A stretch of DNA of 64,000 nt, taken from positions 1 to 64,000 of the forward strand of contig DASPRM010000033.1 in NCBI GenBank assembly GCA_035624455.1, read 5' to 3'. Numbering within the stretch: the stretch's first letter is position 1; every line of letters starts with the position of its first letter. The position numbers and the translations under genes are program-made. The notes under the pieces were generated by a model. It worked only from the letters and a program-made list of their open reading frames with translations, ran no database searches and was not told the origin of the DNA. The DNA comes from Terriglobales bacterium (GTDB lineage Bacteria; Acidobacteriota; Terriglobia; Terriglobales; Acidobacteriaceae). Below, in pieces: positions 43,602 to 48,541 of the stretch.

Positions 43602-44708
43602 ATGTACGGCACTTCTACGTCTCAGGAAGTTGACGAGAAAAATACGGCGCAACGCCGCGTGACCACGGTTGATCTGCGCAGCGACACGGTCACGCAGCCG
43701 ACGCCGGAAATGCGCCGTGCCATGGCTGAAGCAGAGGTCGGCGACGATGTTTATGGCGAAGATCCCACGGTCAACCGCCTGGAGCAACGCGCGGCAGAGA
43801 TTTTTCAGCGCGAGGCAGCCATCTTTGTGCCCAGCGGGACGATGGGTAACGCAATCGCCATCAAGGTTCACACCCGGCATGGGCAGGAGATCATCTGCGA
43901 ATCGCGCGGCCACATCTTCAACTATGAAATGGCCACGCTGGCGAGCTTCAGCGGCTGCCTGGTCCGGCCGATTGTTGCCGAGGACGGAATTCTGCGCTGG
44001 GACGAAATCCGTAAAGCCATCGCTCCCCAAATCTACTACCGAGCGCAGACCGGCTTAATCTCGCTCGAAAACACGCACAACATGGGGGGAGGCACGGTGT
44101 ATCCGCCGGCTGTGGCCGAAGAGATTTGCGATCGCGCTCATGAGGCCGGTCTGCCTGTTCACCTGGATGGCGCGCGCATTTTCAACGCCGGCGCGTTCCT
44201 GAACCGCCCGGTGGCCGAGCTCACACGGAAATTTGATTCGGTGATGTTCTGCCTGTCGAAAGCCCTTGCTGCTCCGGTGGGCTCGATGCTGGTGGGCAGC
44301 CGCGCGTTCATCGATCAGGCACGCAGATACCGGAAGGCGCTGGGCGGAGGCATGCGGCAGGCGGGAATTCTGGCCGCAGCCGGGCTGATCGCGTTGGAGA
44401 AGATGCCGGCTCGACTGGGCGAGGACCATGCCAATGCTCGCCTGCTCGCCGAGAGGCTGGCCCGAATTCCCGGGGTCAAGATCGATCCGGCGAAGGTTCA
44501 GACGAACATTCTGGTGGTCGATATCAAAGGTACGGGGATGAACTCGTCAGAGTTCTGCCGCAAATTGGCCGAGCACAATGTTTTGGCAGGTGGCGTAAAT
44601 CCCGAAACCGTGCGCTTTGTGACGCATATGGATGTCGACCGGTCGGCCTGCGAGCGTGCAGCGGAAGTCGTGAGCCAGGTGTGCGGGAAGGGTGACACAC
44701 AAGCGTGA
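43602..44708 (+). CDS. ltaE: Low-specificity L-threonine aldolase
   Basis: A 368-residue PLP enzyme that splits threonine or allo-threonine to glycine and acetaldehyde. Marks are VDLRSDTVTQPTPEMRRAMAEAEVGDDVYGEDP, FVPSGTMGNAIAIKVHT, LENTHNMGGGTVYP, VHLDGARIFNAG and the PLP lysine in FCLSKALAAPVGSMLVG, where the common form is SKGLGAPVG. Length is normal. The first 18 residues are a non-family extension. GGGGAGC lies upstream of the ATG. No neighbouring glycine or serine genes. Confidence 0.92.
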   Translation: MYGTSTSQEVDEKNTAQRRVTTVDLRSDTVTQPTPEMRRAMAEAEVGDDVYGEDPTVNRLEQRAAEIFQREAAIFVPSGTMGNAIAIKVHTRHGQEIICESRGHIFNYEMATLASFSGCLVRPIVAEDGILRWDEIRKAIAPQIYYRAQTGLISLENTHNMGGGTVYPPAVAEEICDRAHEAGLPVHLDGARIFNAGAFLNRPVAELTRKFDSVMFCLSKALAAPVGSMLVGSRAFIDQARRYRKALGGGMRQAGILAAAGLIALEKMPARLGEDHANARLLAERLARIPGVKIDPAKVQTNILVVDIKGTGMNSSEFCRKLAEHNVLAGGVNPETVRFVTHMDVDRSACERAAEVVSQVCGKGDTQA

Positions 44709-44800: not shown

Positions 44801-45259
44801 ATGGCAATCAAGCTGGAATACTCCACGACGGCCAAGTGCCGTCCTGAGCATGTCTGGCAGAGGTTCGCGAAGCTTGAGGAATGGGCCTGGTGGAACCCGG
44901 TGGTAGGAAAGACTGCCTGGCTAAAGGGCGAACCCTGGAAGAACGACAGCCAGTTCCTGATGGAGATCGTGCGCCCGGTCAAGGTGACTTTCAAGCCGGT
45001 GATTATCGAATCCGCGCCTCCCGGCAGAATTGCCTGGGTGGGTAGCGTCCCCGGCTTCACTGGCAAGCATTTCTTTGACTTTAAGGCGCAGCCGGATGGC
45101 AACACCCTGCTGCACACCTGGGAAGAGGATTCGGGTCTGCTGACATTTTTGTGGGGAGAGGGCCGCAGGAAATCGCTGACCGATATGCACGCGGATTGGC
45201 TCAACTCGCTGAAAGCTGAGGCGGAGAAGATTGCTCGCGAAGAATATGCGCGGAGCTAA
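44801..45259 (+). CDS. SRPBCC (START-like) superfamily protein
   Basis: A 152-residue protein of the polyketide cyclase/START-like fold: IKLEYSTTAKCRPEHVWQRFAKLEEWAWWNP, VTFKPVIIESAPPGRIAWVG and a C-terminal helix (LTDMHADWLNSLKAEAEKI). The fold forms a hydrophobic pocket for a lipid or aromatic ligand; the ligand is unknown. No signal peptide. A possible terminator follows. Confidence 0.75.
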   Translation: MAIKLEYSTTAKCRPEHVWQRFAKLEEWAWWNPVVGKTAWLKGEPWKNDSQFLMEIVRPVKVTFKPVIIESAPPGRIAWVGSVPGFTGKHFFDFKAQPDGNTLLHTWEEDSGLLTFLWGEGRRKSLTDMHADWLNSLKAEAEKIAREEYARS

Positions 45260-45293
45260 CTTCCGATAGTCTTGAGGGTGCCCGGTTCAACCC

Positions 45294-45359
45294 CGCCCTG
45301 CTTCCGCCGATTCTAGTTTCGGGATATCGAGCCGGCAGGGCGAGGTTGGGGGGTTTTTT
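45294..45359 (+). terminator. Possible terminator before the selenoprotein gene
   Basis: CGCCCTGC (45294-45301) can pair with GCAGGGCG (45335-45342) across a 33-base loop that has some inner pairing, followed by TTTTTT at 45354-45359. The loop is large for a classic terminator. Confidence 0.35.
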
Positions 45360-45394
45360 AGGAAGTTGTGAAACAATGGCAGCCAGGCAGGTCC

Positions 45395-45625
45395 ATGCGA
45401 ATCGACATCAAGCGGTGTTTCTTCTGAGCCGAGATCAAGGCCCAGGCCGTGAGCCTGAAACAAGATCTCGACCGCGAGTTTCATACCCAGACGCGGCTGC
45501 GCCTCGGCAAGCCGGGCGCGCTGGATGTTTACGTCGATGGCCGGAAGATTTATTCCAAGGGCCCGGGCGGACGTCTTCCCAGTTCGCAGGAGATGTTTGG
45601 CCTGGTTCGATCACTGCAAAGCTGA
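45395..45625 (+). CDS. SelW/Rdx-type selenoprotein with in-frame UGA (Sec11)
   Basis: Reading ATG 45395 through the TGA at 45425-45427 gives 76 residues: MRIDIKRCFF, then Sec, then AEIKAQAVSLKQDL and so on to a normal TGA at 45623-45625. The CFFU places Cys8 and Sec11 in the CxxU redox motif of SelW/SelT/Rdx proteins, directly after the first beta strand as in that family. The later segment GALDVYVDGRKIYSK followed by GGRLPSSQEMFGLVRSL matches the family's VxVDGxxIxSKxxxGRxPxxxEI pattern. Downstream of the UGA is a hairpin placed like a bacterial SECIS. The family are small thioredoxin-like redox proteins. AGGCAGG precedes the ATG. Sec insertion genes are not in the window. A stop-interrupted decay product is the alternative. 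Confidence 0.8.
45425..45457 (+). promoter_or_regulatory. Sec UGA codon and candidate bSECIS hairpin
   Basis: After the UGA (45425-45427), a 5-bp stem CAGGC/GCCUG (45443-45447 and 45453-45457) closes the loop CGUGA, which contains the GU dinucleotide typical of bacterial SECIS apical loops. GU lies 22-23 bases after the UGA; in E. coli fdhF it is at about 20-21. SelB would bind it to deliver Sec-tRNA. It lies inside the coding region, as bacterial SECIS must. Confidence 0.65.
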
Positions 45626-45710: not shown

Positions 45711-46163
45711 ATGGCAGAGCGCGAAAACGTTGCCCTGATGCGGCGATGGTTTGAAGAAGTCTGGAATCAGGGTTCGCTGGCGGCGGTGAAAGAACTGCTT
45801 GCTCCCGATGCGGTCGGCATGGGCCAGGGTGAGCCCGATGCCCTGATTCACGGGCCCGCCGACTTCATTCCCTTCATGCAGCGGATTCGCGGCGCCTTCC
45901 CCGACCTCAAGGTCAACGTCGAGGATATCTTCGGCTCCGGCGACAAGGTGGCGGTTCGCTGGTCTGCCGATATGACACACCGCGGCGATCACCTGGGCGT
46001 GCCTGCCAGCGGTGAGCGAGTCCATATTACGGGGATCACTATCGTGCGCATCGAGAACGGGCGCATAGTCCAGGGCTGGGACAACTGGGATCAGCTCTCG
46101 ATGATGCAGATCATCGGCGCGCTTAATTCGCCGGGAGTGGTGCTAGTCAAGGGCGCGGCCTAG
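45711..46163 (+). CDS. SnoaL-like polyketide-cyclase-fold protein
   Basis: A 150-residue protein of the SnoaL/NTF2-like fold: NVALMRRWFEEVWNQGSLAAVKELLAPDAV, IHGPADFIPFMQRIRGAFPDLKVNVEDIFGSGDKVAVRW, MTHRGDHLGVPASGERVHITGITIVRIENGRIVQGWDNWDQLSMMQ. Family members are aldol cyclases or proteins of unknown role with a ligand pocket. ATG 45711 follows GAGG by about eight bases; the frame is open further up but overlaps the selenoprotein gene and is not family-like. It lies 85 bases after the selenoprotein stop, possibly in the same transcript. Confidence 0.8.
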   Translation: MAERENVALMRRWFEEVWNQGSLAAVKELLAPDAVGMGQGEPDALIHGPADFIPFMQRIRGAFPDLKVNVEDIFGSGDKVAVRWSADMTHRGDHLGVPASGERVHITGITIVRIENGRIVQGWDNWDQLSMMQIIGALNSPGVVLVKGAA

Positions 46164-46332: not shown

Positions 46333-47475
46333 TTGGATTTTCAGTTTACCGATGAGCAGTTGCACTTAAGGAACACCGTACGCGATTTTGCCGAAAGCGA
46401 AATCCTCCCGCACGTCATGCAATGGGACGAGCAATCGTGCTTCCCCCTGCAAACCATTAAGGAACTGGGGCACCTCGGCCTGATGGGGACCATCTTCCCC
46501 GTCGAGTACGGTGGCGCCGGCGCGGGATACATCGAGTACGTGATCGCCATCGAAGAGCTTTCGCGGGTTGACGGTTCGGTAGGGATCATTCTGGCAGCGC
46601 ATACCTCGCTGTGCAGCAATCACATCTTTGTAGCGGGGACTGAGGAGCAACGCCGCAAGTACATCCCGAAGCTGGCATCCGGCGAATTCATCGGCGCCTG
46701 GGGACTCACCGAGCCGGGCAGCGGTTCCGACGCGGGTGGCGCGCGCTGCTCCGCGGTTCGCAAGGGCAACAAGTGGGTGCTCAACGGCACCAAGACCTTT
46801 TGTACCAATGGTCACTATGCCGATGTGGTGGTGGTGATCGCGGTGACGGATAAGACGGCCCACACCCATGGATTGTCGGCGTTCATTGTCGAGAGGGGCA
46901 CGAAGGGCTTCCGCGCGGGCAAGAAGGAAAACAAGCTGGGCTTGCGGGCCAGCGACACCGCGGAGCTGATCTTCGAAGACTGCGAAATTCCCCTGGATAA
47001 TCTTCTCGGCAAAGAAGGGGACGGCTTCATCGATGCCATGCGCGTGCTCGATGGGGGCCGCATCTCGATCGCCGCTCTCGGCCTGGGCATGGCCCAGGGA
47101 GCCTACGAGGCGGCGCTGAAGTATTCCAAGCAACGCAAGCAGTTTGGGAAAGCGATCAGCGAGTTTCAGGCTATCCAGTGGAAGCTGGCTGACATGGCGA
47201 CTGAAATCGAGGCTGCCCGCATGCTCACCATGCGTGCTGCCTGGATGAAGGACAACGGCATGAAGAGCACCCTGGAATCCTCCATGGCCAAGCTCTACAC
47301 CAGCGAAGTAGCGGTGCGCTGCGCCAACGAGGGCCTGCAGATCCACGGCGGCTACGGCTTCATCAAGGACTACCCGGCGGAAAAGTTCTACCGCGACGTC
47401 AAACTGTGCACCATCGGCGAAGGCACCAGCGAAATCCAGCGGCTGGTGATCGCCCGGCAGATCCTGAAGGATTAG
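46333..47475 (+). CDS. Acyl-CoA dehydrogenase
   Basis: A 380-residue FAD enzyme that oxidises acyl-CoA to enoyl-CoA, passing electrons to electron-transfer flavoprotein. Marks are [14 protein letters not shown] (FAD loop), [73 protein letters not shown]. The Glu in [10 protein letters not shown] is near the catalytic-base position of the short/branched-chain group (usually E in YEGTxEIQ). TTG start, supported by GGAGG eight bases upstream and the family N terminus [20 protein letters not shown]. The following meaB and epimerase genes suggest branched-chain or propionyl-CoA breakdown. Confidence 0.93.
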
Positions 47476-47512: not shown

Positions 47513-48541
47513 TTGCCAGAGCAATCCCCGCCGCCCGATACTTACAGTTTGAACTCGCAGCTTCAAAGCTCGCAGCTCCAGGCACTCGTTGAGCAGATCC
47601 GCGCGGGTAGTCCGCGGGCGCTGGCGCGCGCGATCACCTCCGTCGAAAACCGCAACTCCGACTCCGCCGCTCTGCTGAAGGCGCTTTTTCCGTACACGGG
47701 CAAGGCTCTGGTCGTCGGGCTGACGGGTGCTCCCGGGTCGGGCAAGAGCACGCTCGTTGATCAATTGGCTCGCGAATATCGCAAACAGGGAAAGACGGTC
47801 GGCATCATCGCTGTCGATCCCACCAGCCCCTATACTGGCGGCGCGATCCTCGGCGACCGGATTCGCATGCAGGCGCACCATGCCGATCCCGGCATTTACA
47901 TCCGCAGCATGGCCACACGTGGATCACTTGGCGGCCTGGCTCGCACAACCGCGGATGTAGCATCGGTTCTCGATGCCGCCGGGCGCGACATTCTGTTGAT
48001 CGAAACCGTTGGCGTCGGCCAGGACGAGGTGGATATCGTGCGCCTTGCCGATGTCACCATCGTGATCCTGGTGCCGGGTATGGGCGACGATGTGCAGACG
48101 ATCAAGGCCGGCATCATGGAGATCGCCGATGTTTTCGTAATCAACAAGAGCGATCGCGAAGGCGCCGAGCGCGTGGAGCGTGAGATCCGCGCCATGCAGG
48201 CACTGGCCGTGCGCCACGACGATTGGGTTCCACCCATCGTAAAGACGATTGCCAGCGAAGGCATCGGAATCGGCGAACTGGCGGAAGCGATCAATCGGTA
48301 TGTCGGATATCTCGCAGAGAGCGGCGCCGGAGATCGCAAGAAAGAGCAGAACTGGCGGGGACGCCTGGTAGAAATGCTGCGTGATTCGCTGCTCGAACGC
48401 GTGGTTCTCGACCATGTCGGCGAGGATGCCATCGCCGGCTATGCCTCCGATGTTGCCCAGCACAAGCGCGATCCCTACTCTTTGGTGGAGCAGATCGTGG
48501 CCGACTTCAGTTCCAATTCAACCAGCACAGTGGAGAAGTGA
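47513..48541 (+). CDS. meaB: MeaB-type G3E GTPase for methylmalonyl-CoA mutase
   Basis: A 342-residue GTPase that guards and repairs adenosylcobalamin loading of methylmalonyl-CoA mutase. Marks are GLTGAPGSGKSTLVDQLA (P-loop), IIAVDPTSPYTGGAILGDRIRMQ, YIRSMATRGSLGGLA, ILLIETVGVGQDEVDI and FVINKSDREGAERV. The TTG start is uncertain because no clear binding site precedes it, but no better start exists before the conserved N-terminal helix (LVEQIRAGSPRALARAI). Its stop overlaps the epimerase start (TGATG), so the two are coupled. The mutase itself is not in the window. Confidence 0.93.
   Translation: MPEQSPPPDTYSLNSQLQSSQLQALVEQIRAGSPRALARAITSVENRNSDSAALLKALFPYTGKALVVGLTGAPGSGKSTLVDQLAREYRKQGKTVGIIAVDPTSPYTGGAILGDRIRMQAHHADPGIYIRSMATRGSLGGLARTTADVASVLDAAGRDILLIETVGVGQDEVDIVRLADVTIVILVPGMGDDVQTIKAGIMEIADVFVINKSDREGAERVEREIRAMQALAVRHDDWVPPIVKTIASEGIGIGELAEAINRYVGYLAESGAGDRKKEQNWRGRLVEMLRDSLLERVVLDHVGEDAIAGYASDVAQHKRDPYSLVEQIVADFSSNSTSTVEK

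Follow-up and report, generated by a model that had tools for sequence, protein, structure and literature searches.

We identify a gene of the SelW/Rdx family on the forward strand of the window, by which we mean the whole 64,000-nucleotide stretch of DNA analysed here, at positions 45395-45625, where it encodes 76 residues when an internal UGA is read as selenocysteine (Sec). Our combined analyses make it very probable that this is a functional selenoprotein gene in which the UGA at codon 11 is decoded as Sec through SelB and a downstream hairpin. The argument is drawn from sequence and brings together the frame itself, the Sec machinery of the genome, conservation of the UGA, a conserved hairpin, synteny and a predicted fold. 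Support for a Sec-encoding gene at this locus is good, and ORF calling with table 11 leaves the gene unreported. It is a real but ordinary gene, belonging to a family already known, which standard gene finding would overlook, and it leaves the understanding of selenocysteine decoding and of SelW unchanged.

A SelW/Rdx frame that continues through UGA

The gene starts at an ATG (45395-45397), and its translation, MRIDIKRCFFUAEIKAQAVSLKQDLDREFHTQTRLRLGKPGALDVYVDGRKIYSKGPGGRLPSSQEMFGLVRSLQS, places a CFFU motif directly after the first strand. The first-pass annotation had proposed a 76-codon frame with a TGA at codon 11, read as CFFU, and a normal stop, and our coordinates and translation agree with it. 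Its expectation that ordinary ORF callers would miss the gene also holds, as the frame is absent from the window's table-11 list of ORFs of at least 60 amino acids. The gene is defined by the following features:

45395..45625, + strand: selW-like (Rdx family) gene, predicted to encode a selenoprotein (Pfam PF10262, NF041051, TIGR02174 and orthologues)
45425..45427, + strand: UGA codon predicted to encode Sec, in a CxxU motif (C8/U11); TGA is found there in 22 orthologues, this one included
45623..45625, + strand: terminating UGA stop codon of the gene; orthologues end at comparable positions

The assignment to SelW/Rdx, likewise made in the first pass, is borne out by both profile and fold. 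The Pfam Rdx profile PF10262 matches the protein across the UGA (E=1.2e-7), aligning residues 3-72 with profile positions 2-73 of 74, and the score of 32.3 bits against a curated cut-off of 22.6 places the protein in this family. An AlphaFold2 model (pLDDT 91.9, pTM 0.79) runs through a strand (residues 3-7), a loop with C8 and U11, a helix (residues 12-29), further strands and a C-terminal helix, which corresponds to a thioredoxin-like fold in which the CxxU motif separates strand 1 from helix 1. When this model was compared with the PDB, the top fold matches were the SelW-related structures 2obk, 2oka, 2p0g and 2fa8; bacterial SelW-related proteins ranked ahead of mouse SelW (2npb), which was followed by thioredoxins. 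In addition, a profile built from the orthologues recovers SelW structures by sequence (2fa8, E=3e-9).

Conservation of the UGA codon

BLAST over 150 relatives returned matches in 17 genomes, and 15 of the 17 rows contained exactly one TGA; at these loci the TGA lies at the equivalent codon in CxxU and the frame is intact on either side. When 120 genomes of the bacterial family were searched with a profile, 28 gave matches, nearly all of these with one TGA. The codon-11 UGA is kept by every full-length orthologue found in the family except two, and nearly all orthologues are free of any other stop. The conserved region begins at the ATG at 45395, where nearly all orthologues have methionine, and it includes the strand-1 RCFF motif that precedes the UGA. 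Across the phylum, matches occurred in 120 of 396 genomes, and among the 137 profile matches 121 had exactly one TGA, 15 had none (several of these being partial) and one had a TGA together with a TAG.

The first-pass annotation had named two outcomes that would bear on its reading, namely Cys or U at position 11 of the homologues and breaks of the frame at other places: U proved to be conserved at this position, and the homologues share the single codon-11 UGA in an otherwise intact frame. Conservation of an in-frame UGA in homologues, or its alignment with Cys, is the pattern by which bacterial selenoproteins are recognised, and the former is what we observe. Very few Cys homologues of SelW-like proteins have been reported in Sec-using organisms (PMC1794560), and the predominance of one-TGA genes in the phylum agrees with this report; in the acidobacterial phylum, SelW almost always takes the Sec form.

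UGA-containing SelW-type genes also co-occur with SelA. Ninety family genomes were searched for both, of which 60 were SelA-positive and 30 SelA-negative, and all 19 genomes with a UGA SelW-type gene, of either the main or the second SelW-like subfamily described below, were SelA-positive (P=1.4e-4 by a hypergeometric test that ignores kinship).

A scan of genome contigs with six sequences yielded five SelW relatives, four of them under acidobacterial titles (Acidobacteriaceae, Terriglobia, Acidobacteriales) and one on a contig of a Rokuibacteriota-labelled MAG (VGLJ01000037.1, L071). The latter, a close relative at 44% identity, shares the UGA and has the hairpin GAGGC/GCCUC, and its presence in this MAG may reflect horizontal transfer or a binning error.

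A conserved hairpin downstream of the UGA

The sequence that follows the UGA can fold into a candidate bacterial SECIS element:

45443..45457, + strand: predicted bacterial SECIS apical stem-loop CAGGC-CGUGA-GCCUG, with G at loop position 2 (rules of PMC13188914)
45430..45470, + strand: predicted extended SECIS with a lower stem CGAGAUC/GAUCUCG around the apical stem (MFE -17.1 kcal/mol)

Published rules for bacterial SECIS elements specify a loop of 3-9 nt, a stem of 4-16 bp, a G in the first two loop positions, a distance of 16-37 nt from the UGA and an MFE of -7.5 kcal/mol or lower (PMC13188914). The hairpin, whose stem pairs 45443-45447 with 45453-45457 around the loop CGUGA, satisfies these rules with 5 bp, a 5-nt loop, G at position 2 and 20 nt from UGA to loop, so that the loop G and U lie at +22 and +23. 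Its MFE is -12.2 kcal/mol in a 41-nt stretch and -6.2 for the bare 15-nt hairpin, and it scores better than 199 of 200 dinucleotide shuffles. However, when the same peptide was recoded at random with synonymous codons, 16% of trials gave the fixed stem (P=0.16), because codons of the QAVSL type tend to pair, and the hairpin in one sequence alone is therefore weak evidence. The first-pass annotation was right about the sequence of the hairpin, its place and the GU in its loop, but the weight that it laid on the hairpin in a single sequence was too great.

Given this recoding rate, support for a function of the hairpin comes from conservation and covariation among orthologues. A perfect 5-bp stem occupies the fixed place in 17 of the 22 UGA orthologues, while the remaining five lack the full stem there, and the per-sequence values combined over the orthologue set give P=0.001 with kinship ignored. 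Moreover, the closing pair covaries in the 22-sequence set (C-G in 12, G-C in six; Fisher P=7e-4), a switch in which a codon change from Gln/Arg to Glu in one arm is mostly accompanied, in the other arm, by a synonymous change of a leucine codon from CUG to CUC. In our first set of 13 sequences the covariation score was modest, being reached by 25 of 500 shuffles, and when the partner was shifted by 1 to 3 columns, the paired cells fell from 88% to 17-43%. The lower stem is present in the genome's own copy, though not in all orthologues. Rfam matched no SECIS-type family at the locus and gave chance matches only. Taken as a set, the SelW orthologues supply a SECIS that is conserved and contains a covarying pair.

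Selenocysteine machinery of the genome

The window belongs to a genome of 4.39 Mb in 166 contigs, in which we found all four of the components (selA, selB, tRNA-Sec and selD) that the first-pass annotation had proposed to look for, and with them the set by which a Sec-using bacterium is recognised. There is one tRNA-Sec (66.4 bits; called SeC by ARAGORN, anticodon TCA), a second Rfam match above the tRNA-Sec cut-off being a tRNA-Ser. SelA is present once (558 bits), and one SelB (351 bits, an intact ORF of 642 aa) and one SelD (360 bits) lie above cut-off. The absence of selB or tRNA-Sec, which would have spoken against Sec decoding in this organism, is thus not what the genome presents, and the proposal that it decodes UGA as Sec is supported by these four components and by the conserved codon-11 UGA. 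The selD gene (L018:1531, C95) itself contains a single in-frame TGA, giving KAAGUASK, and on this basis SelD is predicted to be a selenoprotein as well (AAGUASK); a stable hairpin lies just downstream of its UGA.

Gene neighbourhood

The SelW gene is flanked by the following genes:

43602..44708, + strand: threonine aldolase-like (Beta_elim_lyase), upstream; PF01212 E=2e-107; in 13 of 20 loci, this one included
44801..45259, + strand: SRPBC/polyketide-cyclase-like protein, upstream; PF10604 E=1.3e-9; in 7 loci
45711..46163, + strand: SnoaL-like protein, downstream; PF07366 E=6.8e-35; in-frame start chosen at 45711
46333..47475, + strand: acyl-CoA dehydrogenase, downstream; PF00441 E=2e-54; in 15 of 20 loci, this one included
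47513..48541, + strand: MeaB GTPase, downstream; PF03308 E=2e-96; in most compared loci

The order threonine aldolase, SelW, acyl-CoA dehydrogenase, MeaB is conserved across the bacterial family in most of 20 loci, two of which duplicate others (L069/L073 and L072/L076 have the same genes), so that the independent loci are slightly fewer. This shared order indicates that the orthologues were inherited in place, and the neighbourhood hints at a possible link with acyl-CoA/propionate metabolism.

Between the SRPBC and SelW genes, at 45290-45360 of the window, a G+C-rich inverted repeat is followed by a T run. This is likely a terminator, and the SelW gene may therefore have its own promoter.

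SelW genes without Sec and a second subfamily

Two full-length SelW proteins have neither Sec nor a Cys in its place. One is the orthologue of genome G023 (L036/L086), which stands in the conserved locus and retains neither the Cys nor the Sec (QTPLFPGD), and the other is a more distant homologue in G037 (L101), with a non-Cys residue at the Sec site (RCFWEF). Both genomes retain tRNA-Sec and SelA.

In two genomes with a UGA SelW, SelA and SelB (G059 and G073), neither Rfam nor ARAGORN found a tRNA-Sec, the best match being an ordinary tRNA-Ser, and a search beside selA or selB found none; the explanation could be a gap in the assembly or a tRNA-Sec of aberrant form. A stricter-filter search likewise recognised no tRNA-Sec in three genomes with SelA and SelB (G001, G007 and G050), which may reflect an assembly gap or an unusual tRNA-Sec. 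One of these, G007, also carries a UGA SelW-type gene.

The same bacterial family contains a second SelW-like Sec subfamily (L102-L108; for example L103, G007:C48:55649-55804) with one in-frame TGA and the pattern CPTU-xNN ... GQFEVxADG ... RGGNWFTRSFGAGYP. Genomes that carry it include G541, G007, G265 and G068.

Alternative readings of the in-frame UGA

An in-frame stop, as present here, is also what a pseudogene would contain if a former Cys-containing SelW gene had acquired a nonsense mutation at codon 11. This is very improbable, given that the UGA is kept in the family, apart from the two full-length orthologues mentioned above, and across the phylum, that start and stop are conserved without any other disablement, that the genome has complete Sec machinery and that we saw no close orthologue of the Cys form that could have been the starting point of such decay. 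We rejected this reading on the conservation of the UGA in an otherwise intact frame and on the presence of the machinery.

We found no points in favour of a changed code or a suppressor by which the UGA would be read as Trp or Cys. This gene and other genes of the window terminate in TGA, a tRNA-Sec with anticodon TCA is present, and the UGA falls on the known CxxU site; we consider this explanation extremely improbable and rejected it on the conservation of the UGA and the Sec machinery. The frame does remain open after the TGA up to 45622, which would suit termination at the UGA with a 3' part of about 65 residues made separately, or else the locus might be non-coding. Conservation that starts at the ATG at 45395 and takes in the RCFF motif before the UGA argues against this, and we regard it as hardly credible.

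Proposed decoding and comparison with known systems

We favour decoding of the codon-11 UGA as Sec. By the established route of bacterial Sec decoding, SelA and SelD would make Sec-tRNA-Sec, which SelB, binding the hairpin 20 nt downstream of the UGA, would deliver to a ribosome that reads codon 11 as selenocysteine. The product would be a small protein of thioredoxin fold whose redox-active CxxU lies between strand 1 and the helix that follows it, and is most likely a selenolate-based thiol/selenol-disulphide oxidoreductase. Insertion of Sec, redox activity and any partner of the protein are matters that we infer, the redox chemistry of the Cys-Sec pair from the family. A further idea, that the acidobacterial proteins form a distinct SelW subfamily, short, with CFFU-x-[DE] and an insertion of one residue after Sec, fixed beside a cluster of acyl-CoA dehydrogenase, MeaB and epimerase genes, playing a part in that pathway and capable of losing both redox residues while its gene stays in position (as in G023), is improbable.

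The bacterial SelW-like family (Zhang et al. 2006, PMC1794560) likewise consists of small CxxU thioredoxin-fold proteins in which the Sec form predominates; compared with it, the protein described here is short (76 aa). The Campylobacterota SelT/SelW/SelH protein (NF041051; E=5e-8) and CXXU_selWTH (TIGR02174; E=5.2e-7) match it from end to end, but the scores of 33.1 and 29.9 bits fall below the curated cut-offs of 88 and 34.2, respectively, and do not make it a member of either. The bacterial SelW-related structures 2fa8, 2p0g, 2oka, 2obk and 3dex adopt this fold too, with TM-scores of 0.80-0.84 over the query, at 21-28% identity. In 2fa8 the site of Sec is occupied by Cys, and the motif C-x-x-C-N lacks the one additional residue that the protein described here has right after Sec (CFFU-x-[DE]); L034 and L038 are likewise without this residue. 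Mouse SelW (2npb) and human MIEN1/Rdx12 (2ljk) share the Rdx fold and the position of the redox motif, and differ in being eukaryotic and about 22% identical. In eukaryotes the SECIS sits in the 3' untranslated region, whereas the hairpin predicted here lies within the coding frame.
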